From: a virus
Length of the DNA: 64,000 bases
Reading direction: 5' to 3' (one strand)
IMG/VR virus record: IMGVR_UViG_3300021602_000003
Location: 62,001 to 126,000 of that record
A program made the position numbers and the translations under genes. Within the stretch, counting starts at the first letter, position 1; each line of letters opens with the position of its first letter. A model generated the notes under the pieces. That model was not told where the DNA came from, did not search any database, and saw nothing but the letters and a program-made list of their open reading frames with translations. This document shows, piece after piece, positions 32,159 through 53,667 of this stretch.

Positions 32159-32419
32159 ATGGCAGAATTATTAAAATGGAATATAAGTGTCGAATGCGGA
32201 CCTACTGCATCAGATGTACATCATATCATAATTAATGCAACTTCTTCGGAAGATGCATTGGTTAAAGCTAAACAGTGGGCGGAAGACAATAATGTAAAAA
32301 ACCCTACGTTTAGCGAACCGTATGAAGACATATACGATGAGTTTTTAGAATGGACACCCGAAGAAGAGGAAGAGTTCCTGCACATAGTTAATAACTCGGG
32401 TAATATTGGCGAAGATTGA
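32159..32419 (+). CDS. Small acidic protein
   Basis: Unknown; 86 residues, beginning MAELLKWNISVECGP, with a DALVKAKQWAEDN helix like those of small alpha/beta phage proteins, and a Glu-rich end. Its tail overlaps the next -35 box. Confidence 0.5.
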   Translation: MAELLKWNISVECGPTASDVHHIIINATSSEDALVKAKQWAEDNNVKNPTFSEPYEDIYDEFLEWTPEEEEEFLHIVNNSGNIGED

Positions 32420-32445
32420 CCAAGATTATGCCGTTATTGTATAAT
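32416..32445 (+). promoter_or_regulatory. Sigma-70 promoter of the NMNAT-Nudix gene
   Basis: TTGACC, 18-base spacer, consensus TATAAT at 32440-32445. A leader of about 60 bases follows. Confidence 0.8.
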
Positions 32446-32510: not shown

Positions 32511-33542
32511 ATGACAAAACAGTATCATACACTCGTATTCATCGGTCGGTTTCAACCGGTGCACAATGCTCACACAGAAATCATCCGTAGAGCAAGTAAA
32601 CTTTCCAAACAAATTATTATCATTGTCGGCAGTGCTAATCAACCACGGACCTATAAGAATCCGTGGACAAGCAAAGACCGCCAAAACATGCTCGAAAATA
32701 TTCTGAACTATATAGTTCCAGAGACAGAGTGTGCGGTTCGTATCGAGCACAATACAGACACAATCTATAATGATACAGCATGGGCCGGCCGTGTCCAGTC
32801 TATTGTAGCAAAACATACACAACCGGGTGATAAGATTGGTGTAATCGGGCATAAGAAAGATAGCACCTGCTTTTATCTTGATATGTTTCCGCAATGGGAA
32901 CAAGTTGAAGTTCCACTACTGGAACCTCTCAACGCTACGAATATTCGTGATCTTTATTTTCGCCGAGATGCTAATATGCACTTTATTCATGGTGTTGTTC
33001 CACAACCTGTATTTAGATTGCTAGAAGGTTGGAAAGATACACCAGAATACGAACAAATTATTCGTGAACGAGAATTTGTTGAAATGTATAAAAAACAATA
33101 TTCGAGTTTACCATATGAACCAGTATTTGTAACAACCGATGCTGTAGTAATATGCTCTGGACATGTGGCAATGATCAAACGCCGCAGCGAACCAGGTAAA
33201 GGTCTGTGGGCATTACCCGGCGGATTCTTAAATGCTGCTACAGATAAGAGTGTTGTAGATGCAATGATTCGCGAATTACGTGAAGAGACAGGTATTAAGG
33301 TACCTGCCCCTGTACTTTTAGGTAGCATTAAGGATTCGCGTGTTTTTGACGCAATAAACCGTAGTGCCAGAGGCAGAACAATAACGCACGCCTTTAAGAT
33401 TCTATTGCCAGATGGTCCACTACCGAAAATTAAAGGTATGGATGATGCAGTTAAGGCAGAATGGATCCCGATTAGCGAAATAGACAGTAATGTATGTTTT
33501 GAAGATCATTTCGAAATTATTAATCACTTTTTGGGGAACTAA
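32511..33542 (+). CDS. NMN adenylyltransferase-Nudix bifunctional protein
   Basis: The N-terminal domain is a nucleotidyltransferase (GRFQPVHNAH at 12-21 with the HxGH-type site, and later NATNIRDLYFRR), expected to convert NMN plus ATP to NAD. The C-terminal Nudix domain (ALPGGFLNAATDKS then MIRELREETGI at about 230-262) is expected to hydrolyse ADP-ribose or related compounds. The fusion is known in bacteria and some phages. The nicotinamide phosphoribosyltransferase one gene away makes its substrate, so the pair forms a two-step NAD salvage route from nicotinamide. It uses more CGC, CTC and GGT codons than its neighbours, suggesting transfer. Confidence 0.9.
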   Translation: MTKQYHTLVFIGRFQPVHNAHTEIIRRASKLSKQIIIIVGSANQPRTYKNPWTSKDRQNMLENILNYIVPETECAVRIEHNTDTIYNDTAWAGRVQSIVAKHTQPGDKIGVIGHKKDSTCFYLDMFPQWEQVEVPLLEPLNATNIRDLYFRRDANMHFIHGVVPQPVFRLLEGWKDTPEYEQIIREREFVEMYKKQYSSLPYEPVFVTTDAVVICSGHVAMIKRRSEPGKGLWALPGGFLNAATDKSVVDAMIRELREETGIKVPAPVLLGSIKDSRVFDAINRSARGRTITHAFKILLPDGPLPKIKGMDDAVKAEWIPISEIDSNVCFEDHFEIINHFLGN

Positions 33543-33543
33543 A

Positions 33544-34527
33544 ATGAGAAATAAGATACCAACTGGCTACCTCTTTACAGTCGATGGATTACGTGGCGAA
33601 CTCGAAACATTATCTATCGGAGACTACGGAAAATCACGAAACATAAAAGCTGATTTTCTCGGATTTCCAAATGAAATCAACGGAGTTGCAAATGGCAATT
33701 GTTTGCCCTTATCTGAAAAATGGGTGATCACACTCTCAACGCAATATGGTTGTATCCAAAACTGCCGATTTTGCGATGTGCCAAAGATTCCATTTAAGGG
33801 TAATGCATCCTTCGACGATCTTAAGTTACAGTTTTATGAGGCAGTAAAATGTTTTCCCGAAGTTCATTATACTGACCGGTTGAATATTCATTTTGCTCGG
33901 ATGGGCGAACCTATTGTTAATGATCATGTTTTCAACTTCGCAAGATGGTTATTTACTAACAAACATATTATTCAGCAAGAGTTAAATCTCCGTACCGAAG
34001 TTATTCATCCTGTTCTAACTACTTCGTTACCGAATAAGTTTAAGCACAATGAAGCGAGATTAAATGAATGGTGCCAGATTAAAAATGAGCTATATAATGG
34101 CCAGGCAGGATTACAGTTGAGCATAAATTCAACTAGTGAGGAACAACGAAATGATATGTTCGCGTGTGGGCAGCTAACCCTTAAAGAAATATCCGATATT
34201 GGAAATCGACTGCCTGATCCTATCGGCAGAAAATATTGTTTGAATTTTGCTTATAGCACTAACTACGAAATAGATGCTAATAAGCTATTGGGTCTTTTTG
34301 ATCCGAATAAATTTATGGTGAAGATTACTCCGATCCACAATAATGACGCATGTAGGAAAAACAACATTAAAACTGTTGGCGGATATGACTCCTATCTACC
34401 GTATAAGACGGTAGAGGAATCACTTAAACTGGCAGGCTACGATGTGTTAGTTTTTGTTCCTTCGATGGACGAGGAACAAGGATTAGTTACGTGCGGGAAT
34501 TTGGTATTGTCCAAAAAATTGACCTAA
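33544..34527 (+). CDS. RlmN/Cfr-like radical SAM enzyme
   Basis: The 327-residue protein has the radical SAM cluster motif CIQNCRFC (Cys70, Cys74, Cys77) preceded by STQYG, the RMGEPIVN block at 119-126, LTTSLP, LSINSTSEEQRND and a late VTCGNLVL with Cys317. This is the RlmN/Cfr order, where the late Cys carries the methyl group. The second RlmN catalytic Cys, seven residues before the first cluster Cys, is Thr63 here, so the chemistry may differ. It starts two bases after the NMNAT-Nudix stop; an in-frame ATG at 33490 lies inside that gene. The role next to NAD salvage genes is unknown. Confidence 0.75.
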   Translation: MRNKIPTGYLFTVDGLRGELETLSIGDYGKSRNIKADFLGFPNEINGVANGNCLPLSEKWVITLSTQYGCIQNCRFCDVPKIPFKGNASFDDLKLQFYEAVKCFPEVHYTDRLNIHFARMGEPIVNDHVFNFARWLFTNKHIIQQELNLRTEVIHPVLTTSLPNKFKHNEARLNEWCQIKNELYNGQAGLQLSINSTSEEQRNDMFACGQLTLKEISDIGNRLPDPIGRKYCLNFAYSTNYEIDANKLLGLFDPNKFMVKITPIHNNDACRKNNIKTVGGYDSYLPYKTVEESLKLAGYDVLVFVPSMDEEQGLVTCGNLVLSKKLT

Positions 34528-34547
34528 TATAGTAATAGTGCTATAAT
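34519..34547 (+). promoter_or_regulatory. Sigma-70 promoter of the NAMPT gene
   Basis: TTGACC, 17-base spacer, consensus TATAAT. The 60-base leader holds a six-pair hairpin (CCCGAC / GTTGGG) and a 12-codon frame starting with ATG at 34553, at about the expected transcript start. Confidence 0.8.
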
Positions 34548-34607
34548 AAGTCATGGTAAGAAAAGTCCCGACGATAGAGTTGGGCATTTAAATAAAGGAA
34601 CTTTATT

Positions 34608-36032
34608 ATGAAACTCTCAAAAAATATTATTTTAAATTCTGACTCGTATAAATATAGTCAGTTCAATCAGTACCCTAAAAATACCGAATATGTGTATTCT
34701 TACATTGAATCGCGTGGCGGTCAGTGGAACAAAACAGTCTTTTTCGGATTGCAGGCATTCATCAAGGAGTATTTGACTACTCCGATCACCAAGGAAGATA
34801 TCGATGTTGCTGAAGCCATTATCACTGCTCACGGTGAACCGTTTTATCGGGAAGGGTGGGAATATATTCTTACGGCGCACGAAGGTCGTCTTCCAGTCGT
34901 CATTAAAGCGGCCCCAGAAGGTTGTCTCATACCAACTAAGAACGTATTAGCCACAATTGAAAACACTGACCCGAAGTGCGGGTGGCTAACATCGTTTCTT
35001 GAGACTGCAATTCTTCGCGCAATTTGGTATCCGACTACTGTAGCAACAAATAGTTACGAATCGAAGAAAATTATACTCAACGCATTGGAGAAAACAGGTG
35101 ACCCCACTCTTATTGATTTTAAGCTACATGATTTTGGTGCTCGTGGTGTATCGAGCATGGAAAGTGCTGGTCTCGGGGCAGCAGCTCACCTCATTAATTT
35201 TATGGGCACTGATACTATTACTGGTCTACTCTACGCTCGGGAGTATTATGGTGCTGACATGGCAGGATTCAGTATCCCCGCAATGGAACACTCCACTGTT
35301 ACAAGTTGGGGACGCGAAGGTGAAGTAGATTCATATCGCAACATGTTGAAAACACATGGTAAGAAAGGTTCACCAATTGCGTTTGTTTCAGACTCGTACG
35401 ATATTTTTAATGCCTGCAAGCTGTGGGGCACTGAGTTGAAACAAGATGTAATTGATTCCGGTGCAGTAGTTGTAGTTCGCCCAGATTCGGGTGACCCGAG
35501 TGATGTGGTTGTCAAGTGCCTCTACATTTTAGAAAAATATTATGGTTCTGTGAAGAACGACAAGGGATTCCGTGTATTAAACAATGTCCGTGTTATCCAA
35601 GGTGATGGTATTGATCATGCTACAATTCGCAGCATTTTGTTCTGTATGGAAATTGCTGGATTCAGTGCAGACAATGTGGCATTCGGCCAAGGTGGTGCTC
35701 TGCTACAGCAAGTCAACCGTGACACCCTGAAGTTCGCCATGAAGTGTTCCGCAATCGGTATCAAAGAATGGTCGGAAAAATACGAACAAAATATTACAGT
35801 TTGGCGCGATGTGTTCAAGGATCCGATCACCGATCACGGCAAGGTCTCTAAGAAGGGTCGCGTGACTCTTTGGGAAAGTGGGGGCGAGTATGCTTCTGCC
35901 ATTGATGAACCACGCGGTTGGACTGACAGAGGGGTTGGCCCGTGGGTCGAAGCTCTTTCTGAAGTCTATCGTGACGGTGCCTTAATAAAAGAAATTACTT
36001 TTGACGAAGTTCGCGCTAACGCCAGGAGATAA
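34608..36032 (+). CDS. nadV: Nicotinamide phosphoribosyltransferase (NAMPT/NadV)
   Basis: Joins nicotinamide to PRPP to make NMN. The 474-residue protein has the family blocks SDSYKYSQFNQYP, YSYIESRGG, DFGARGVSSMESAGLG, MAGFSIPAMEHSTV and VVVRPDSGDP, which line the active site. Length matches human and bacterial NAMPT (about 490). Codon choice (CTC, CGC, GGT) is unlike the TTA/AGA-rich surroundings, which suggests acquisition. With the NMNAT-Nudix gene it forms a complete nicotinamide-to-NAD route, like that reported in phages that restore NAD after depletion by host defences. Confidence 0.95.
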   Translation: MKLSKNIILNSDSYKYSQFNQYPKNTEYVYSYIESRGGQWNKTVFFGLQAFIKEYLTTPITKEDIDVAEAIITAHGEPFYREGWEYILTAHEGRLPVVIKAAPEGCLIPTKNVLATIENTDPKCGWLTSFLETAILRAIWYPTTVATNSYESKKIILNALEKTGDPTLIDFKLHDFGARGVSSMESAGLGAAAHLINFMGTDTITGLLYAREYYGADMAGFSIPAMEHSTVTSWGREGEVDSYRNMLKTHGKKGSPIAFVSDSYDIFNACKLWGTELKQDVIDSGAVVVVRPDSGDPSDVVVKCLYILEKYYGSVKNDKGFRVLNNVRVIQGDGIDHATIRSILFCMEIAGFSADNVAFGQGGALLQQVNRDTLKFAMKCSAIGIKEWSEKYEQNITVWRDVFKDPITDHGKVSKKGRVTLWESGGEYASAIDEPRGWTDRGVGPWVEALSEVYRDGALIKEITFDEVRANARR

Positions 36033-36033
36033 T

Positions 36034-36219
36034 ATGAAAACATCACATCACCAGTTTGATCTTACACCGCAACTTAAGGAAGAGATGGAATTCTGGAAAA
36101 TGTGGCAGGAGAAGTTTGGTAAAGACTCAGCTATCGAACTTTCTTCTGGTTTGATTAGATATCTATGCGACCGCTGTAAAGAATATCGCAAGAAGATTGC
36201 TGAACTGGAGTCAGTATGA
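36034..36219 (+). CDS. Small protein after NAMPT
   Basis: A 61-residue charged helical protein (MKTSHHQFDLTPQLKEEMEF) from the ATG two bases after the NAMPT stop, with AGGAGA as ribosome site. Probably in the same transcript; function unknown. Confidence 0.6.
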   Translation: MKTSHHQFDLTPQLKEEMEFWKMWQEKFGKDSAIELSSGLIRYLCDRCKEYRKKIAELESV

Positions 36220-36309
36220 AGTATTCTGGATGAGTTGCACGGAATGTTCTCTTACAAGACTTCATCAACCCTGTGAAGCCTGTCCAAATTGGTCAGCGCA
36301 AAAACGAAG

Positions 36310-38109
36310 TTAACTTAGTTCGTCGTCCTCTAAGAATTTACTTAATTTACTTTCATATGTATCGACTAGATTCGATGCCTCGGCCTGTTGTCTTAATTGG
36401 GCTATCTTTTTAGCTAGTTCTTTCTTCATTAGAGGACTTCTGGAAGTCTCGGGATCCATTTGTATCCGTTGTAATTCTTTTTGGCGCGAGCGTAATGCCT
36501 CTCTGGTTAGCGGTTGTGCAACATCTTCTACCTTTACAGTATCCCCTCTCCACTCGTCTGTGGAGTCATCTAACACATCTTGATAACTCACATCGTTGGA
36601 AGGTGCTGAACGGTTTATGCCACCCATACCACCTTCGTTTACATCACCTATCATAGTTGCATAGTCGTCCATAGTAAGTGTTCTGCCTTCCTGGCTTAAC
36701 TCGATTAACTTCTCGGCCGCATTGTGCAGATCTAGGTCGGTTTTTGCGTCTTCTTTGGCATATTCCATGATCCGAATCAATAAAGGCACATCTACTGTTA
36801 CTGTGTCAGCGGGATTATTAATTTCATCGCCTTCCGCCACACCTTGCTCCGAGGGTAACACTTGTATGTCGCCACCTGGGAATACACAAACCATTTCACT
36901 GTCAGTCACCGTTTGTAGAGCCTTGTACCCTTTTGATTGCAGTAACCTGACATATTTGGCCAGTTTACGATAATCTCTGTCAAACAATGCGTCAATAATA
37001 TCTTCGTCTATATCCTCATCGTAGTCAACGAGGTATACGGGACTGGCATTAACTTTAGCGCGTGTTATCGCATCGCCGTATACCTCGGCGTGTTCTTTAT
37101 GAGGACTGAAAAATACACCGAATGGTGGTATTTTGAATTTGCTAATTAAATGTTCGCCACCGTGATACAGAACATCGGGTAGACTTGATGATGAGTCCTC
37201 AGTTAATCCATCTGCTTCCGCCACGCCTTGCTCGCCGAATCGTTGACGATAGTCATTAGACTTCATCGAAGATCTTGTACCTATAACCGAATTACCTTCG
37301 CCACTTAATAATAGGTCGTACATTAATTTAATAACTTTTGTCGGGCTATTCATTCTTTCTAACGAATTTTTGAACCATTCGATCTTCTCCGGCTTCATCG
37401 GCTTAATGCTAGGTTTACTAATTAAGTTCATCGCTTGAACTTTTAATGTATGAAGATCTCTAATTTGTTCGAGGCGTTTTAAGTCTTCTATGCTAAAATT
37501 ATAATCTACCTTCCCTTCCTCAACATCTTGCTGTGCTGCCACATTCTGCGCTGACCTTCTTTCGAAGTTATCACCCATATGTTTTGTAGATTTTATAATC
37601 TTACCATAAACTCGATCTTCCTCCCCTGTGTCGCCTCTTGCTTTTGCAGCATCCATCTGCGGTCCAAGTTTTTCCTTCTGCCATTTATTGATAACTGTAT
37701 CTGATATCTCGTTTAACTCGTCTTCCATAATTTCGTCATCCTCGTCGGCAAGTTTTTCTATCACTATAACATTTCCAATAGATGTCTTCATCATTCTACC
37801 ATCGACCAATTGAAATAAGACTATATCACCACTAACTTTCTTAACCTTACCTTCCATCTTTGTTTTTCTAGTTCGAATATTATCGCCCGGCTCAGGCATA
37901 TCAGGAGATTCTTCTATAGATGATAGTTCGTCCCTTCGTCTTTGCTCTGACCGATCCTGCTCTCTGTGCCACTCGTCGTTACCGGGATTCTTTCTTGGTG
38001 CAGGCGGCGCAGCCTTTAGATGTTTCTTCGATTGTAAGTACTTAGTGACTCTTTCGGCAGCTTCATCTCCCGTTGGAATACTATTTTCTGTGACATGTGA
38101 TAACTTCAT
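36310..38109 (-). CDS. Modular virion-type protein with ADP-ribosyltransferase-like segment
   Basis: The 599-residue protein is built of modules. A KOW/SH3-like segment (EPGDNIRTRKTK to VIVIEKL, about 73-120) is followed by helical regions. An ADP-ribosyltransferase-like block covers residues 311-415 (DVLYHGGEHLISKF, FGVFFSP, HAEVYGD, then SPVYLVDYDED and SEMVCVF). It is framed by two EQGVAE peptides at 293-298 and 421-426. A third module at 430-490 and a Lys/Glu-rich tail complete it. The start is the ATG at 38109, with a late motif 24 bases upstream; the longer frame to 38163 reads through the promoter region. Likely an internal or injected head protein; the enzymatic role is inferred from motif order only. 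Confidence 0.6.
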   Translation of the reverse strand: MKLSHVTENSIPTGDEAAERVTKYLQSKKHLKAAPPAPRKNPGNDEWHREQDRSEQRRRDELSSIEESPDMPEPGDNIRTRKTKMEGKVKKVSGDIVLFQLVDGRMMKTSIGNVIVIEKLADEDDEIMEDELNEISDTVINKWQKEKLGPQMDAAKARGDTGEEDRVYGKIIKSTKHMGDNFERRSAQNVAAQQDVEEGKVDYNFSIEDLKRLEQIRDLHTLKVQAMNLISKPSIKPMKPEKIEWFKNSLERMNSPTKVIKLMYDLLLSGEGNSVIGTRSSMKSNDYRQRFGEQGVAEADGLTEDSSSSLPDVLYHGGEHLISKFKIPPFGVFFSPHKEHAEVYGDAITRAKVNASPVYLVDYDEDIDEDIIDALFDRDYRKLAKYVRLLQSKGYKALQTVTDSEMVCVFPGGDIQVLPSEQGVAEGDEINNPADTVTVDVPLLIRIMEYAKEDAKTDLDLHNAAEKLIELSQEGRTLTMDDYATMIGDVNEGGMGGINRSAPSNDVSYQDVLDDSTDEWRGDTVKVEDVAQPLTREALRSRQKELQRIQMDPETSRSPLMKKELAKKIAQLRQQAEASNLVDTYESKLSKFLEDDELS

Positions 38110-38132: not shown

Positions 38133-38140
38133 TATTTATC
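38133..38140 (-). promoter_or_regulatory. Late promoter motif for the minus-strand gene
   Basis: Reads GATAAATA on the minus strand, 24 bases before the ATG at 38109. It is divergent from the sigma-70 promoter at 38154. Confidence 0.6.
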
Positions 38141-38802: not shown

Positions 38803-39048
38803 ATGTCGTTTAGTAGTAATTGGCGTCTTGAACCGGGATTAAAAGCTTATATAGCATATAAGAAGAGATTTGCATTCTTGCCAACTAAATGTGTGGAAGG
38901 CGAACATGTGTGGTTCAAGAATTATTATAAAAAATATGAAATATGGGGTTCCGACGGCCCGGCCGAATTAGGTATGGGTCACATCGATTTCATAGAGAAC
39001 ATAACCGAAGCAGATTATATTGTTAGAAGATTAACCGAAGGCTTTTGA
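38803..39048 (+). CDS. Small hypothetical protein
   Basis: Unknown; 81 residues, rich in aromatic and basic residues (FKNYYKKYEIWGSDGPAELG). The frame ends inside the -35 box of the thyX promoter. Confidence 0.5.
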   Translation: MSFSSNWRLEPGLKAYIAYKKRFAFLPTKCVEGEHVWFKNYYKKYEIWGSDGPAELGMGHIDFIENITEADYIVRRLTEGF

Positions 39049-39073
39049 CTTTCGATAGATTTTCGTATACAAT
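39045..39073 (+). promoter_or_regulatory. Sigma-70 promoter of thyX
   Basis: TTGACT, 17-base spacer, TACAAT at 39068-39073. AGGAGAAG precedes the ATG at 39093. Confidence 0.7.
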
Positions 39074-39092
39074 TTGCATATCAGGAGAAGAT

Positions 39093-39779
39093 ATGCAAGA
39101 TAATATTATTAAAGTTTTAGATCATGGCCATGTACGATTGGTCGAAAGCATGGGTAGCGACTTATCCATTGTGCGTAATGCTAGAGTATCCTACGATGCA
39201 GAATGGCGAGCAGGTGATGACGATGGCAAAGATGCCAAATTGCTCCATTACTTGTTAAAAAATAAACATACTAGCCCGTTTGAATCTTGTGTTTTTACAT
39301 TTGACGTAAAAGCACCCATCTTTGTATTTAGACAATGGCATAGACATCGTACTTGGAGTTTTAATGAAATTTCTGCTCGTTATGCAGAGCTGCCAGAAGA
39401 ATTCTACGTTCCGGAACTGGCTCAAATTACCACTCAGTCATCATCTAATAAGCAGATGCGTACAGAAGAACAACACCGGGATGCAGAAGGCGTGGCTGAA
39501 ATCATTAGATCATCTAGCGAGGCTTCTTTCAGTCATTATCACAAGCTAATATTAAATGGTTGCCCTCGTGAGTTAGCACGTTCGGTACTACCGGTAGGAA
39601 CATATAGTCATATGTTTGCTACTTGCGATTTACATAACTTATTTCACTTCCTTAAACTTAGATTACATTCACACGCACAATACGAAATTCGTGTTTATGC
39701 TGAAGCAATGTTAAAATTAATCGAACCTGTCGTTCCAATTTCTACTGCCGCTTTTAGAGAACACATCTTAGGTGTTTAG
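39093..39779 (+). CDS. thyX: Flavin-dependent thymidylate synthase
   Basis: Makes dTMP from dUMP using FAD and methylene-tetrahydrofolate. The signature RHRTWSFNEISARY matches RHRxxSxNExSxRY. The C-terminal LKLRLHSHAQYEIRVYAEAM carries the conserved substrate-binding residues. The ATG at 39093 after AGGAG gives 228 residues; the longer frame begins in the promoter. It works with NrdJ and dCMP deaminase in dTTP supply. Confidence 0.95.
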   Translation: MQDNIIKVLDHGHVRLVESMGSDLSIVRNARVSYDAEWRAGDDDGKDAKLLHYLLKNKHTSPFESCVFTFDVKAPIFVFRQWHRHRTWSFNEISARYAELPEEFYVPELAQITTQSSSNKQMRTEEQHRDAEGVAEIIRSSSEASFSHYHKLILNGCPRELARSVLPVGTYSHMFATCDLHNLFHFLKLRLHSHAQYEIRVYAEAMLKLIEPVVPISTAAFREHILGV

Positions 39780-39786
39780 ATAAATA
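39779..39786 (+). promoter_or_regulatory. Late promoter motif GATAAATA
   Basis: Overlaps the thyX stop and lies 59 bases before folE. folE is not a virion gene, so its use is uncertain. Confidence 0.4.
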
Positions 39787-39845
39787 ACTATGCTACACAA
39801 TGGTAGCACAAATCAAAAACAAACCATCACAAAGGAAGGTTATCA

Positions 39846-40529
39846 ATGTCATATAATAAAACAAAATGCGACCCGGGATTGGGTCAGGAAGTACACGAGC
39901 ATCTAGTTAGAATGGGTGTCGAAACACCCTGCGAATCTGATTTTATGGATCGTAAAGAAAAAATAGAAAAGATCGAACATCATTTCGCTGCTATCATGGA
40001 AACGCTAGGGCTAGACCTGAGCGATGATAGTTTAGAAGAAACACCTAAGCGTGTCGCTAAAATGTATGTAAACGAAATCTTCTGGGGTCTTGACTACGAA
40101 GCATTTCCTAAATGCACCACTGTAGATAATAAAATGAAATACGACGAAATGGTCGTTGAAAGGAATATCAATGTACAATCTAACTGCGAACATCACTTTG
40201 TTGTTATTGATGGTGTTGCAACGGTCGGTTATATTCCTAAGCAAAAGGTACTGGGCCTTAGTAAGATTAATCGGATCGTTGAGTACTTTAGTAAGAGGCC
40301 GCAAATCCAAGAGCGACTAACTGAGCAGATTTATCATGCACTACAATATATTCTTGAAACAGATAATATCGGAGTAGTTATTCATGCTCAACATTTTTGT
40401 GTTAAGAGTCGTGGCGTGGAAGATGTGGGATCGAGTACTGTAACAAGTAAATTGGGCGGGTGTTTTAAAGATGAATCGCACGTTCGTTCTGAATTTATGA
40501 GATTAGTGCCGGTAGATTCACGGAGATAA
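39846..40529 (+). CDS. folE: GTP cyclohydrolase I
   Basis: Opens GTP to dihydroneopterin triphosphate, the first step of folate and of 7-deazaguanine synthesis. Zinc ligands are seen in SNCEHHFVV and HAQHFCVKSRG; the SSTVTSKLGGCF block is typical. Residues 1-35 form a family-atypical N-terminal extension. QueD two genes downstream uses its product, which points to the 7-deazaguanine (preQ0) branch; QueE, QueC and a DNA transglycosylase were not seen in this window. Confidence 0.93.
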   Translation: MSYNKTKCDPGLGQEVHEHLVRMGVETPCESDFMDRKEKIEKIEHHFAAIMETLGLDLSDDSLEETPKRVAKMYVNEIFWGLDYEAFPKCTTVDNKMKYDEMVVERNINVQSNCEHHFVVIDGVATVGYIPKQKVLGLSKINRIVEYFSKRPQIQERLTEQIYHALQYILETDNIGVVIHAQHFCVKSRGVEDVGSSTVTSKLGGCFKDESHVRSEFMRLVPVDSRR

Positions 40530-40540
40530 GGATATCTTAT

Positions 40541-41008
40541 ATGATCTTTAATAAAAGTAAAGAACTAAAAGGTATGAAGGTAGGGATTGTTTTCTCTACC
40601 TTCGATTTACTACATGCTGGACATATAGCAATGTTGAGCGAAGCTAAAAATCATTGCGACTATTTAATAGCAGGATTGCAGACAGATCCGACAATCGACA
40701 GGCCAGGAATTAAGAACAAGCCTGTCCAGAGTATTGTAGAAAGACAAATACAACTTGCCACAAATAGAAATGTAGACGAAGTAGTTGTATATGAAACTGA
40801 AAAAGATCTAGAAGACTTATTGTTAATTTTACCAGTTAATGTAAGAATACTAGGTGTAGAGTATAAAGATATATCCTTTACTGGAAAAGATATATGTCGT
40901 AACCGAAATATTGAAATAGTATATAACGGACGCGATCATAGTTTTAGTTCCAGTAATCTACGAAAGCGTGTGGCAGATTCTGAAAATTGTAAGGAGAAAC
41001 TACTATGA
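40541..41008 (+). CDS. Cytidylyltransferase-like nucleotidyltransferase
   Basis: The 155-residue enzyme has the nucleotidyltransferase site STFDLLHAGHIAML (HxGH) and the late SSSNLRKRV motif, as in glycerol-3-phosphate cytidylyltransferases. It activates a phosphorylated small molecule, whose identity cannot be read from sequence. Between folE and queD it may belong to a nucleotide or envelope modification pathway. Confidence 0.75.
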   Translation: MIFNKSKELKGMKVGIVFSTFDLLHAGHIAMLSEAKNHCDYLIAGLQTDPTIDRPGIKNKPVQSIVERQIQLATNRNVDEVVVYETEKDLEDLLLILPVNVRILGVEYKDISFTGKDICRNRNIEIVYNGRDHSFSSSNLRKRVADSENCKEKLL

Positions 41009-41163
41009 TTGCATTACTCTTAATAATACTCGCATTAAATCTGTGCATTGTTCTCAGATTAGCAATAGTATATGGAAGAATCATTGAATCGAATTGTACA
41101 CACGATTGTGATCAAGGCAGGAATTGTACCTGCTGTAATAAAGACGAAAAAGAGGCATTATGA
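41005..41163 (+). CDS. 52-residue membrane protein with Cys-rich tail
   Basis: The short frame is tied by ATGA overlaps to the gene before and to queD after it. One hydrophobic segment (MIALLLIILALNLCIVLRLA) is followed by a tail with CTHDCDQGRNCTCC, five cysteines and one histidine that could hold a metal. A GGAG site precedes the ATG. Function unknown. Confidence 0.6.
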   Translation: MIALLLIILALNLCIVLRLAIVYGRIIESNCTHDCDQGRNCTCCNKDEKEAL

Positions 41164-41636
41164 CAAAATATATTTCAACTAAAACATATAAACAAATTGG
41201 GCCAGTAGCTTATAGACAATGGCGATCAGATTCCCATTGCAATCTTATTCATGGATATGCACTATCTTTTCATTTAGAATTTGAATCAGACACTCTAGAT
41301 GCTCGTAATTGGGTATTTGATTTCGGCGGATTAAAACCACTTAAGGGTGTATTGGAAGATTGGTTTGATCATACATTACTTGTAGCGCAGGATGACCCGA
41401 TGAAAGAAGAATTGCTTCATCTTGGTCAATTAAGATTGGCAAAGATTACTGTAGTAGAAAAAACAGGCTGCGAAGGTCTTGCCGATTTTATTTATGAGTA
41501 CATAAACACAATTTTTCTGCCCAATTGCGGTTCAGCAGAGGCAGAACGAGTTTGGTGCTGTAAGGTGGAAGTAAGAGAAACAGATGCTAATATGGCTATG
41601 AGAGTAGGACACAGGGAAGACAAGGAGTTCGAATAA
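41160..41636 (+). CDS. queD: 6-carboxytetrahydropterin synthase-like (QueD/PTPS)
   Basis: Belongs to the QueD/6-pyruvoyl-tetrahydropterin synthase family acting on the FolE product. His26 and His31 in SHCNLIHGYAL correspond to zinc ligands, WVFDFGGLK and FDHTLLV carry the substrate and His motifs, and KVEVRETDAN the terminal Glu. The usual HGH zinc motif is HGY here, so one ligand may be replaced. With FolE it suggests part of a 7-deazaguanine pathway for base modification. Confidence 0.8.
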   Translation: MTKYISTKTYKQIGPVAYRQWRSDSHCNLIHGYALSFHLEFESDTLDARNWVFDFGGLKPLKGVLEDWFDHTLLVAQDDPMKEELLHLGQLRLAKITVVEKTGCEGLADFIYEYINTIFLPNCGSAEAERVWCCKVEVRETDANMAMRVGHREDKEFE

Positions 41637-49850: not shown

Positions 49851-51625
49851 CATTTGCAAATTATTTGCCAGAAGCATTTCTATTAGAGGACGTTGCACTG
49901 ACTAAAGGTAGTCAGCGTGTTATGAGCGATAAGACTTTAGTAAGCGGCCTGGCAGCAAGAGTGAGAAGAGATGCGGATTTTAATCCGTCTGTCTTTCCAC
50001 CTAATGCAGATAGGAAATTTGAAAAGGCATCCGACGAAGATGTTGCAAAGTGGTTTCTTGAAAATATCGATAAGATAGAAAAAGAAGGGTATGAAGGTAC
50101 TATATATTCTAGAGACGGAATGTATAGCGACTGGATTGTTAGACGATATATTGCAGGTAGTCACAACTGGGAAGATTTGAAGGGTGTGATGAATATGAAT
50201 CTTAGGGATTGGACAATTCTTAAGAATCGTAACGAATTAGACCCCGCTCACAAAGAAGTTTCCAAATTTAAGAGTGTGCGCGAAATCGGTGCATACATGG
50301 TTCATCACTATCAAGATAAGTTAGAGGATGTTCGCAATGCTGCAAAATTTGCCGCCAGGGATAAAATGGCTCGGGCTATTCCGCTTATTAATAATGCAGA
50401 TTATAAAATTACAGTTGCTTTAAACAGAGCAGCAGCATGTAAATTAGGATCCGGAACACAGTGGTGTACTGCAAATTCTACATATGGAGATATGTTTAAG
50501 AGATATGCTGGTGAGGCAATGTTATATCAGATGTATCCTGCTGTGCCGGAAACAATCAGTAAGAAAAGTAGTATGACAGGTAAAGAAATAACAGGTAAAG
50601 AAAAATATCAGTTTGGTCCGGATTCAGGATTATCTTTTAAAGATATAGCAGACGAAAATGTTAAGCCTGAGGATATAAGAACAAAATTTCCTTACTTGTA
50701 TACAGATCTTGTTGCTGCATTAAAACAGAATAAGGCCAAAATTGTAGAATTAGAAAAGACATTTTCAGAAGACCCCGCATTGCAAGATCCCGATATGAGT
50801 AAGATTAGGACATATAATGTAGATGAAGAAATTACAAAATTAAAGAAGTTTATAACTGCCGGATATATGACAGACGAAGTTCGTCCTAAAGAGCACGTAG
50901 AGAAGGATGATGCCGGGCAAGAACAACCGCAACTATCACCGCCGGTTGAGACGCTGCCACAAGCTGCACCTATGGAAAGTATCACAGAATTTGCTCGAAG
51001 AATGTTAGAAGGTAAAACTAATAAAGACGAGTTAGACGAAGAAGATTTAGAAGACACAGATTCAGATTTAGGATCAATGGGCGCCGGCGCTGGCCCAACG
51101 GGAGGCGGAAAATTTCCGCCAGGTACAGCACCAACAATGCCGGAATCATTTAATAATAAAGGAACAGAGATCATGGAAAATGTAGATAAAGATGTAGCAG
51201 CAATGCTTAAGAATTTAAAGAAATATGACAGGTTGGTAGAATCGTGTGCACCAGTGTTAATGGCTCGTCCAAAACCATATATAGCAGAGAAGGAAGAGGT
51301 TGAGGAAGAAGATATCGAAGAAGGGTGGGACGAAGATCAGGCTAAGAAAGAAAAGCTTAAGGCTCCTCCAGAAGAAGTAAATCTCGAAGAAGGCAAGCCG
51401 TGGGAAGCAGACAAGGAAGAAGATAAGAAAGAAGCCAAGACAGGCGATAAGACTAAGACACATAAGGGTGGCGAAGTTACTAAGACAAAAGATGGCCTGA
51501 CCCATAAAGGAACTTATGGTTCTGATAAGGCTAAGGACAAAGTCGACGAAGGCGCTGATCCAGAGGTGCTAGAATGGATGAGTCGTTTCTCTAAACTCGG
51601 TAACATGAAAGGCTACGGTCGTTAA
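49847..51625 (+). CDS. Large virion-type protein with TQWCT motif
   Basis: The 592-residue protein starts MTFANYLPEAFLLED, similar in style to T4 head-targeting sequences. The first 270 residues form a folded domain with AACKLGSGTQWCTANSTYGDM and a later KYQFGPD, a motif set that recurs in phage proteins of unknown function and in PcfJ-like domains. The last third is acidic and lysine-rich with low complexity. The ATGA overlap with the previous gene suggests equal amounts of both. Confidence 0.6.
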   Translation: MTFANYLPEAFLLEDVALTKGSQRVMSDKTLVSGLAARVRRDADFNPSVFPPNADRKFEKASDEDVAKWFLENIDKIEKEGYEGTIYSRDGMYSDWIVRRYIAGSHNWEDLKGVMNMNLRDWTILKNRNELDPAHKEVSKFKSVREIGAYMVHHYQDKLEDVRNAAKFAARDKMARAIPLINNADYKITVALNRAAACKLGSGTQWCTANSTYGDMFKRYAGEAMLYQMYPAVPETISKKSSMTGKEITGKEKYQFGPDSGLSFKDIADENVKPEDIRTKFPYLYTDLVAALKQNKAKIVELEKTFSEDPALQDPDMSKIRTYNVDEEITKLKKFITAGYMTDEVRPKEHVEKDDAGQEQPQLSPPVETLPQAAPMESITEFARRMLEGKTNKDELDEEDLEDTDSDLGSMGAGAGPTGGGKFPPGTAPTMPESFNNKGTEIMENVDKDVAAMLKNLKKYDRLVESCAPVLMARPKPYIAEKEEVEEEDIEEGWDEDQAKKEKLKAPPEEVNLEEGKPWEADKEEDKKEAKTGDKTKTHKGGEVTKTKDGLTHKGTYGSDKAKDKVDEGADPEVLEWMSRFSKLGNMKGYGR

Positions 51626-53642: not shown

Positions 53643-53667
53643 CTTATATAGTTAAGTTTTATATACT
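53639..53667 (+). promoter_or_regulatory. Sigma-70 promoter of clpP
   Basis: TTGACT, 17-base spacer, TATACT. It overlaps the stop of the feoA-like gene. Confidence 0.8.

Follow-up and report, generated by a model that had tools for sequence, protein, structure and literature searches.

The subject of this report is a minus-strand gene and its neighbours in a stretch of 64,000 nucleotides of viral DNA, positions 62001-126000 of the 166,256-base IMG/VR virus record IMGVR_UViG_3300021602_000003. This whole stretch is called the window, and coordinates refer to it unless the record is named. The gene encodes a protein of 599 amino acids (aa) which is best read, with a probability of about 0.6, as a late, capsid-targeted mosaic polyprotein of exchangeable effectors that is cut into pieces and injected. 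One of its modules resembles an ADP-ribosyltransferase (ART). The gene is convergent to NAMPT which, together with a gene for an NMNAT-Nudix protein, appears from sequence to form a separate early-type module of nicotinamide adenine dinucleotide (NAD) salvage, a counter-defence of the NARP2 type. All counts of open reading frames (ORFs) given below are based on mechanical, uncurated calls. The parts of the mosaic gene are the following:

36310..38109, minus strand: gene of the mosaic protein (599 aa; ATG at 38109, GTG-started ORF to 38163), taken from the ORF list, with syntenic mosaic relatives in loci L002 and L003
38086..38109, minus strand: capsid-targeting-like N-terminus MKLSHVTE/N, residues 1-8
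37516..37524, minus strand: hydrophobic-x-Glu/Gly site VEE/G at a module boundary, residues 196-198, in a low-confidence linker of the model
37215..37233, minus strand: junction repeat GAGCAAGGCGTGGCGGAAG, encoding EQGVAE/A, the left ART seam (two occurrences in the window against a chance expectation of 0.02)
36832..37215, minus strand: ART cassette, residues 299-426
36831..36849, minus strand: junction repeat GAGCAAGGTGTGGCGGAAG, encoding EQGVAE/G, the right ART seam (the same junction class occurs in at least 120 viral contigs, in one frame)
36634..36642, minus strand: hydrophobic-x-Glu/Gly site VNE/G at a module boundary, residues 490-492
36631..36831, minus strand: NPADTVTVDVPLL module (also given as the NPADTVTVDVPLLIRIMEYAKEDAKTD module), present in several further phage loci

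The modular structure of the gene is evident from its relatives. This minus-strand gene keeps its place in the syntenic loci L002/L020 and L003, where it has other modules. L003 passes directly from '...SYRARFGE' to 'EVANEASMGGIN' at the point where the window has two cassettes inserted, EQGVAEA-ART and EQGVAEG-NPADT; the latter is held in common with L002, which carries different cassettes before it. The ART cassette is flanked by two near-identical 19-bp repeats, in frame and 384 nt apart. ART is the one recognisable effector-type domain of the protein, the other modules being of unknown function, and no peptidase (MPTase) domain was found in it or among the 25 families listed for 116 relatives. 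The NPADTVTVDVPLLIRIMEYAKEDAKTD module (36631-36831) is common to many aquatic phages, including the 735-kb huge phages LR756501 and LR756503, and occurs there in very different proteins. A hydrophobic residue, any residue and Glu are followed by A, G, S or N at six places of the window protein: VTE/N at the N-terminus, residues 65-67 and 196-198, both ART seams, and residues 490-492. The AlphaFold2 model has the look of beads on a string (mean predicted local distance difference test score, pLDDT, of 60.5). Five of the six sites are placed in low-confidence linkers. As 39% of all residues of the protein are of low confidence, this has a chance probability of about 0.04, and the modelled position lends weak support to the sites as cleavage seams.

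The same seams are shared by a large set of viruses. Viral contigs were scanned for GARCARGGYGTGGCGGAAGG, which gives a lower bound of at least 120 stretches, and all 136 sites, in at least 120 viral contigs, were found inside long ORFs in the frame EQGVAEG. At 151 further GVAE junctions outside the scanned pattern Val is encoded by GTG in 85% (same-ORF background 18%) and Ala by GCG in 89% (same-ORF background 7%), therefore the seam DNA itself is conserved, beyond what the protein code demands. Cutting of the ORFs at the seams yields 286 internal modules with a median length of 77 aa, and 54 of the 61 multi-member module clusters are found behind more than one left neighbour. Conserved junction DNA suggests a homologous seam for the swapping of cassettes between phages. 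The cargo of 116 EQGVAEG-type proteins is mostly unknown; recognised in it are GNAT, CTP-transferase, GH19, lysozyme and sigma70 region 4 domains. In a literature search no description of the seam or of the GVAEG motif was found, the one match being unrelated HLA work.

Junction DNA conserved at the nucleotide level is also expected of plain recombination seams. It could be argued that the mosaic protein is packaged and remains uncut, the EQGVAEG seams being flexible linkers and recombination sites, in the manner of polyvalent proteins delivered whole; such proteins can be transferred unprocessed (PMC5512222). This explanation is considered unlikely in view of how the seams vary at the protein level. 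Variants VSE, VEE, VTE, VNE, VGE and MAE are observed, so that variation mainly affects the middle residue and spares the hydrophobic one and Glu, and among close variants Glu is lost once only (VAK). Such a pattern is what a hydrophobic-x-Glu protease site would allow. Moreover, the N-terminal propeptide ends in the same motif class, and other module boundaries carry different hydrophobic-x-Glu/small sites, namely VEE/G and VNE/G.

In the preferred reading, that of a polyprotein which is cut, the events would run as follows. The protein would be expressed late. At its start it would carry a brief targeting propeptide with hydrophobic-x-Glu as its last residues, as in T4 internal proteins, followed by small exchangeable modules split by hydrophobic-x-Glu/small-residue sites, typically EQGVAE/G. 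During head maturation a protease of the gp21 type would take off the propeptide and cut the VAE/G seams. The freed small proteins, the ART-like one included, would be packaged alongside the DNA and reach the next host in the way of T4 IPI and Alt, and the junction DNA would double as a homologous seam for the exchange of cassettes among phages. A more general proposal, held tentatively and at somewhat less than even odds, is that in T4-like aquatic phages one short in-frame DNA (about GGTGTGGCGGAAGGC) is both the swap seam and the code for a VAE/G protease site, so that any module inserted there would automatically be packaged, released and injected.

Capsid targeting is indicated by the N-termini. 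In EQGVAEG loci 55 of 727 ORFs start with M[KR]xx[DE]hhxE (consensus MRAxEFI[TS]E/A; mean of shuffles 0.08, maximum 2), and none of the 124 ORFs in the control (NAMPT) loci does. T4 ipII and ipIII begin with MKTYQEFIAE/A, and ipI with MKTFKEF. A slightly looser pattern, admitting the one-residue difference found in T4, picks up 58 of these 727 ORFs and none of the 124; applied to the 31 ORFs of a 25-kb T4 stretch, it picks up exactly ipII and ipIII. For packaging in T4, ten N-terminal residues of IPIII are enough; gp21 removes them, and Alt, which is an ART, is packaged, deprived of its propeptide and injected (PMC9026906). In the genome of the window 7 of 233 ORFs have targeting-type N-termini, against 0.96 in shuffles (maximum 5; 0 of 500 reach 7). 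Apart from the mosaic gene, such N-termini are found in ORFs at record positions 32330, 51223, 85227, 115017(-) and 156391(-), which begin with MRLSEIQLTE, MKISEIITE, MRAREILEE, MKFKDLLLE and MKLQELIRE respectively; the one at 51223 is a multi-helix-turn-helix protein. By their N-termini these five ORFs are candidates for other packaged proteins.

A candidate protease is present in other EQGVAEG records. The check covered 20 records, 17 of them chosen for EQGVAEG; gp21 (Peptidase_S77) was found in all eight EQGVAEG records with a full gp23, and their gp23 has a similar LxE stretch near the cut site of T4 gp23. As to location in the virion, ORF91 (start MKSFLQFLKE/A), ORF92 and ORF93 of the cultured cyanophage S-SCSM1 belong to one cluster of genes with virion-protein annotation, and detection by mass spectrometry is reported (PMC9602691). 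Modules in L097, L081, L102 and L134 are homologous to ORF91, and a module in L108 to ORF93; in this phage, two cassettes have homologues that are virion proteins.

The timing of expression was approached through promoter motifs, of which three are placed next to the genes in question:

38133..38140, minus strand: late-promoter-like GATAAATA, 31 nt upstream of the ATG of the mosaic gene
32416..32445, plus strand: sigma70-type promoter-like site TTGACC-18-TATAAT (11/12 match), upstream of NMNAT-Nudix
34519..34547, plus strand: sigma70-type promoter-like site TTGACC-17-TATAAT with TG before the second hexamer (11/12 match), upstream of NAMPT

The consensus of T4 late promoters is TATAAATA. A copy of NATAAATA stands no more than 120 nt ahead of 54 of the 203 ORFs, against about 9 predicted by its density over the whole genome, and the GATAAATA-type motif is found before the genes for sheath (at 48 nt), tube (at 36 nt) and neck-type protein (at 32 nt) as well as before further virion genes. 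It is found at five of the seven targeting-type genes of the same genome (p 0.015). The two sigma70-type sites are suggestive only as promoters, since promoter-like sites in the region overall show no excess (20 versus 19.0 in shuffles). Late-type and sigma70-type motifs point to different timing classes, and therefore the mosaic gene is probably late and the salvage genes early.

The nature of the ART-like segment was assessed by profile comparison. Its core corresponds to 36847-37182 (residues 310-421). Pfam ART-PolyVal (PF18760) is matched with E 0.01 by the whole protein and 4e-4 by the segment alone; the latter match has 21.6 bits, under the curated cut-off of 31.2, and covers profile positions 6-58 only. 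Pairwise alignment with the ART of contig G009 is near chance, and for this reason a profile was used, built of the clear ART-PolyVal of G009 (4e-23) and three phage relatives. Comparison by hhalign of the segment with these four phage ART-PolyVal proteins gives a probability of 87 and E 4e-6 (single comparison) over the whole domain. The HMMER score against the profile is 10.9 bits, while all 5000 shuffles score lower (maximum 8.7). The aligned motifs YHG, SP...A..Y and (S)EMVCVF put H316, Y344 and E405 at the H-Y-E positions. A model of the segment made by AlphaFold2 without an alignment is uninformative (pLDDT 43.6); no homologues of the segment were found in viral contigs, in genome contigs, in annotated phages or, by sequence, in the PDB. 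In sum, the segment is likely to be an ART of the H-Y-E, polyvalent type, and the ART cassette is a probable Alt-like, host-modifying effector by analogy. The similarity seen in the sequence-only reading is real and of moderate strength, with H-Y-E kept, though below the Pfam cut-off. It might also be that the segment is inactive, a degenerate or non-ART module inside the mosaic protein, as would fit the score under the cut-off, the partial profile alignment, the poor single-sequence model and the near-chance pairwise similarity. The match of profiles over the whole domain, the score above every shuffle and the retention of all three residues make this rather doubtful, and even an inactive segment would be compatible with a polyprotein of delivered modules.

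Other modules with YHGT/YHYT motifs, in L067, L152, L158 and L039, were considered as ARTs; the scanned ones gave no Pfam match and they are kept as leads only. In L152 (5722-6588) and L158 (275-1168) there is a family with an MRANEF(I/L)xE start followed by an (F/Y)HY(T/S)G motif, whose Pfam match is unconvincing; by these motifs it may represent a further kind of ART that bears a capsid-targeting propeptide. The locus L182 (205-9105, contig G009) is an array of proteins with capsid-targeting-type N-termini; it holds the clear ART-PolyVal, a possible second ART of the YHYT type (MRINEILTE...), a GNAT and chitinase-like protein, and EQGVAEG mosaics.

Several facts weigh against the reading of the mosaic gene as a cleaved and injected polyprotein. 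Its N-terminus, MKLSHVTE, matches less well than MRAxEFITE, and the pattern applied to its own genome was widened so as to include it. Known T4 cleavage sites have I or L, not V, at the hydrophobic position; cutting at the VAE/G seams is a proposal, and a cleavage product was seen at no VAE/G site. The ART assignment is moderate, with no confirmation of the fold by AlphaFold2. Enrichment of the late motif across EQGVAEG loci is not significant (p 0.09), which is why the late-motif claim is limited to the window's own genome. For some of the cargo (GH19, endolysin-like) a role as cytoplasmic effector is not obvious. Finally, gp20, gp21, gp22 and gp23 were not detected in the window's own record, so the system is unconfirmed within one genome. 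The last point, together with the fact that most modules are of unknown function, would suit mosaic proteins that are intracellular accessory genes rather than virion proteins, MRAxEFITE being some other signal. This is quite improbable, as ipII and ipIII are what one form of the N-terminal motif selects in the T4 stretch, two cassettes have homologues among the S-SCSM1 virion proteins, and a late-type motif precedes the window gene and other targeting-type genes.

The proposed cleaved and injected polyprotein has likenesses to several known systems. T4 IPI-IPIII and Alt (PMC9026906) resemble it in the MKTYQEFIAE/A-type propeptide, the late-type promoter motif, the occurrence in T4-like phages with gp21 and a probable ART cargo. 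T4 internal proteins, however, have a single cleaved propeptide before the mature protein, whereas here many modules follow one another, candidate sites recur inside the chain and the DNA of the seam is conserved; the window ART is of the H-Y-E type and T4 Alt of the R-S-E type (PMC5512222). Polyvalent proteins, known from phages and from conjugative elements (PMC5512222), are likewise multidomain, predicted to be delivered with DNA, and free in their mix of ART, GNAT and other effector domains. In the present case the window protein has one effector-type domain (ART), and GNAT, CTP-transferase, GH19 and sigma70 region 4 are found across the relatives as a set. Polyvalent proteins depend on built-in peptidases, many members having an MPTase domain, or stay in one piece, and descriptions of them mention no common seam that recurs; here the head protease would do the cutting, at a standard seam. 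The giant-phage head protease gp245 of SPN3US (motif A-x-E/; PMC10052503) also cuts after a short x-x-Glu motif and at several sites in one protein (gp53), but its sites lie in propeptides and the candidate sites discussed here lie between shuffled effector modules. The difference from T4 internal proteins and polyvalent proteins lies in one standard, reused seam, conserved both as protein motif and as DNA, in proteins with no recognisable peptidase domain of their own. If the reading is true, there is a large, largely unannotated reservoir (at least 120 contigs with one exact DNA pattern) of proteins delivered into bacteria at time zero. Assembly from interchangeable parts would then account for the apparently meaningless mosaic make-up of these ORFs, and an MRAxEFITE N-terminus with VAE/G seams would be a signature for finding injected anti-defence and host-takeover proteins.

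The plus-strand side of the locus contains three genes:

32511..33542, plus strand: NMNAT-Nudix (NadM-like), 343 aa (Pfam CTP_transf_like 8e-14 and NUDIX 5e-16; PDB 2qjo 281 bits; phrog_395 6e-76)
33490..34527, likely start 33544, plus strand: radical-SAM-like gene with a CX3CX2C motif (phrog_24834 1.8e-113; Pfam Radical_SAM 0.03)
34608..36032, plus strand: NAMPT (NadV-like), 474 aa (NAPRTase 1e-50, NAMPT_N 1.5e-28; PDB 7yqo 527 bits; phrog_448 7e-147)

The two salvage genes named in the sequence-only reading are real. The match of NMNAT-Nudix to PDB 2qjo spans residues 4-341, and NAMPT aligns to PDB 7yqo over residues 5-472 with RPDSGDP, EHST, SDSYDI and GTDT kept. The Nudix box keeps RELREETGI, and its upstream (first) Glu is Lys in the window and Arg in L002. 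That reading had placed the salvage genes side by side, and they are indeed close in the window, but the radical-SAM-like gene separates them. The foreign codon use ascribed to both was found, mildly, for NAMPT only (GC content at third codon positions 0.41, rank 4th of 74 ORFs of 250-700 aa), NMNAT-Nudix being average (rank 32nd of the same 74). In L002 (10713-10841) the radical-SAM-like gene has shrunk to a 43-aa C-terminal remnant at the same place, 97.7% identical, a sign that the deletion in L002 is recent; more distant relatives of the gene are found near by in L003, L021 and L036. NMNAT-Nudix is present in 17 of the 19 NAMPT loci found in viral contigs, and in a survey of viral proteomes NadV was present in every phage with NadM (PMC9503650). 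NAD depletion is countered by NARP2-type proteins (PMC11984713, PMC12028318). By sequence, NMNAT-Nudix and NAMPT are the ordinary, already known phage pair of NadM and NadV, of NARP2 type. The NadV and NadM of Vibrio phage KVP40 and its relatives (PMC9503650, PMC12028318, PMC11984713) are likewise a NAMPT near an NMNAT-Nudix in a T4-like phage with complete domain matches, and the difference here is the radical-SAM gene in between; otherwise the pair is ordinary and not tied to ART.

The proposal that ART and the salvage genes form one dedicated phage NAD cycle, in which ART consumes NAD, Nudix clears ADP-ribose and NAMPT with NMNAT rebuilds NAD, was not borne out. Every enzyme type is indeed found inside 6 kb, and in a looser link a packaged ART could act first, with early salvage restoring NAD later in the same infection. 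Nevertheless, the syntenic L002 and L003 have other modules in the minus-strand gene, and none of the 17 loci with NAMPT and NMNAT-Nudix shows the ART, which was sought in 47 related records and found near no other NAMPT. The genes are convergent and have different promoter classes, ART is a cassette of the mosaic protein, and the first Glu of the Nudix box is absent. A dedicated cycle is for these reasons very improbable, and the reading of the locus is corrected: NAD-consuming genes next to NAD-making genes need not constitute a pathway.

The source of the window is a T4-like phage, with homologues of gp17, gp32, UvsX, UvsY and UvsW in the record. Genes for a head-tail adaptor and a tail tube are also present, and so is a sheath-type gene, which in our reading is the ORF of 848 aa at record position 53657. 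The head genes of this phage were searched for with gp21, gp22 and gp23 profiles built from eight relatives, and the sole match in the record was a 29-residue gp23-like stretch in a small ORF. Full gp23 was found neither in this record nor in the relative G001; either the head block of gp20-gp23 is outside the contig or it is too diverged for detection. Short gp23-like stretches in small ORFs are seen at record position 146455-146751 (L018) and in L175 of G001. A gp23 split by an intron was considered for this record and dropped, because the small ORF encodes a separate short protein and no match was obtained in Rfam. PADLOC gave no defence-system match of note. In the window, 39045-41636 holds a row of ThyX, FolE, nucleotidyltransferase and QueD-like genes, and a QueE-like radical-SAM gene is present at record position 152647-153543; together these genes read as parts of a 7-deazaguanine route that possibly serves DNA modification. 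A protein of 479 aa with DUF2828 and DUF7788 (von Willebrand-like) is encoded at record position 34377-35813.

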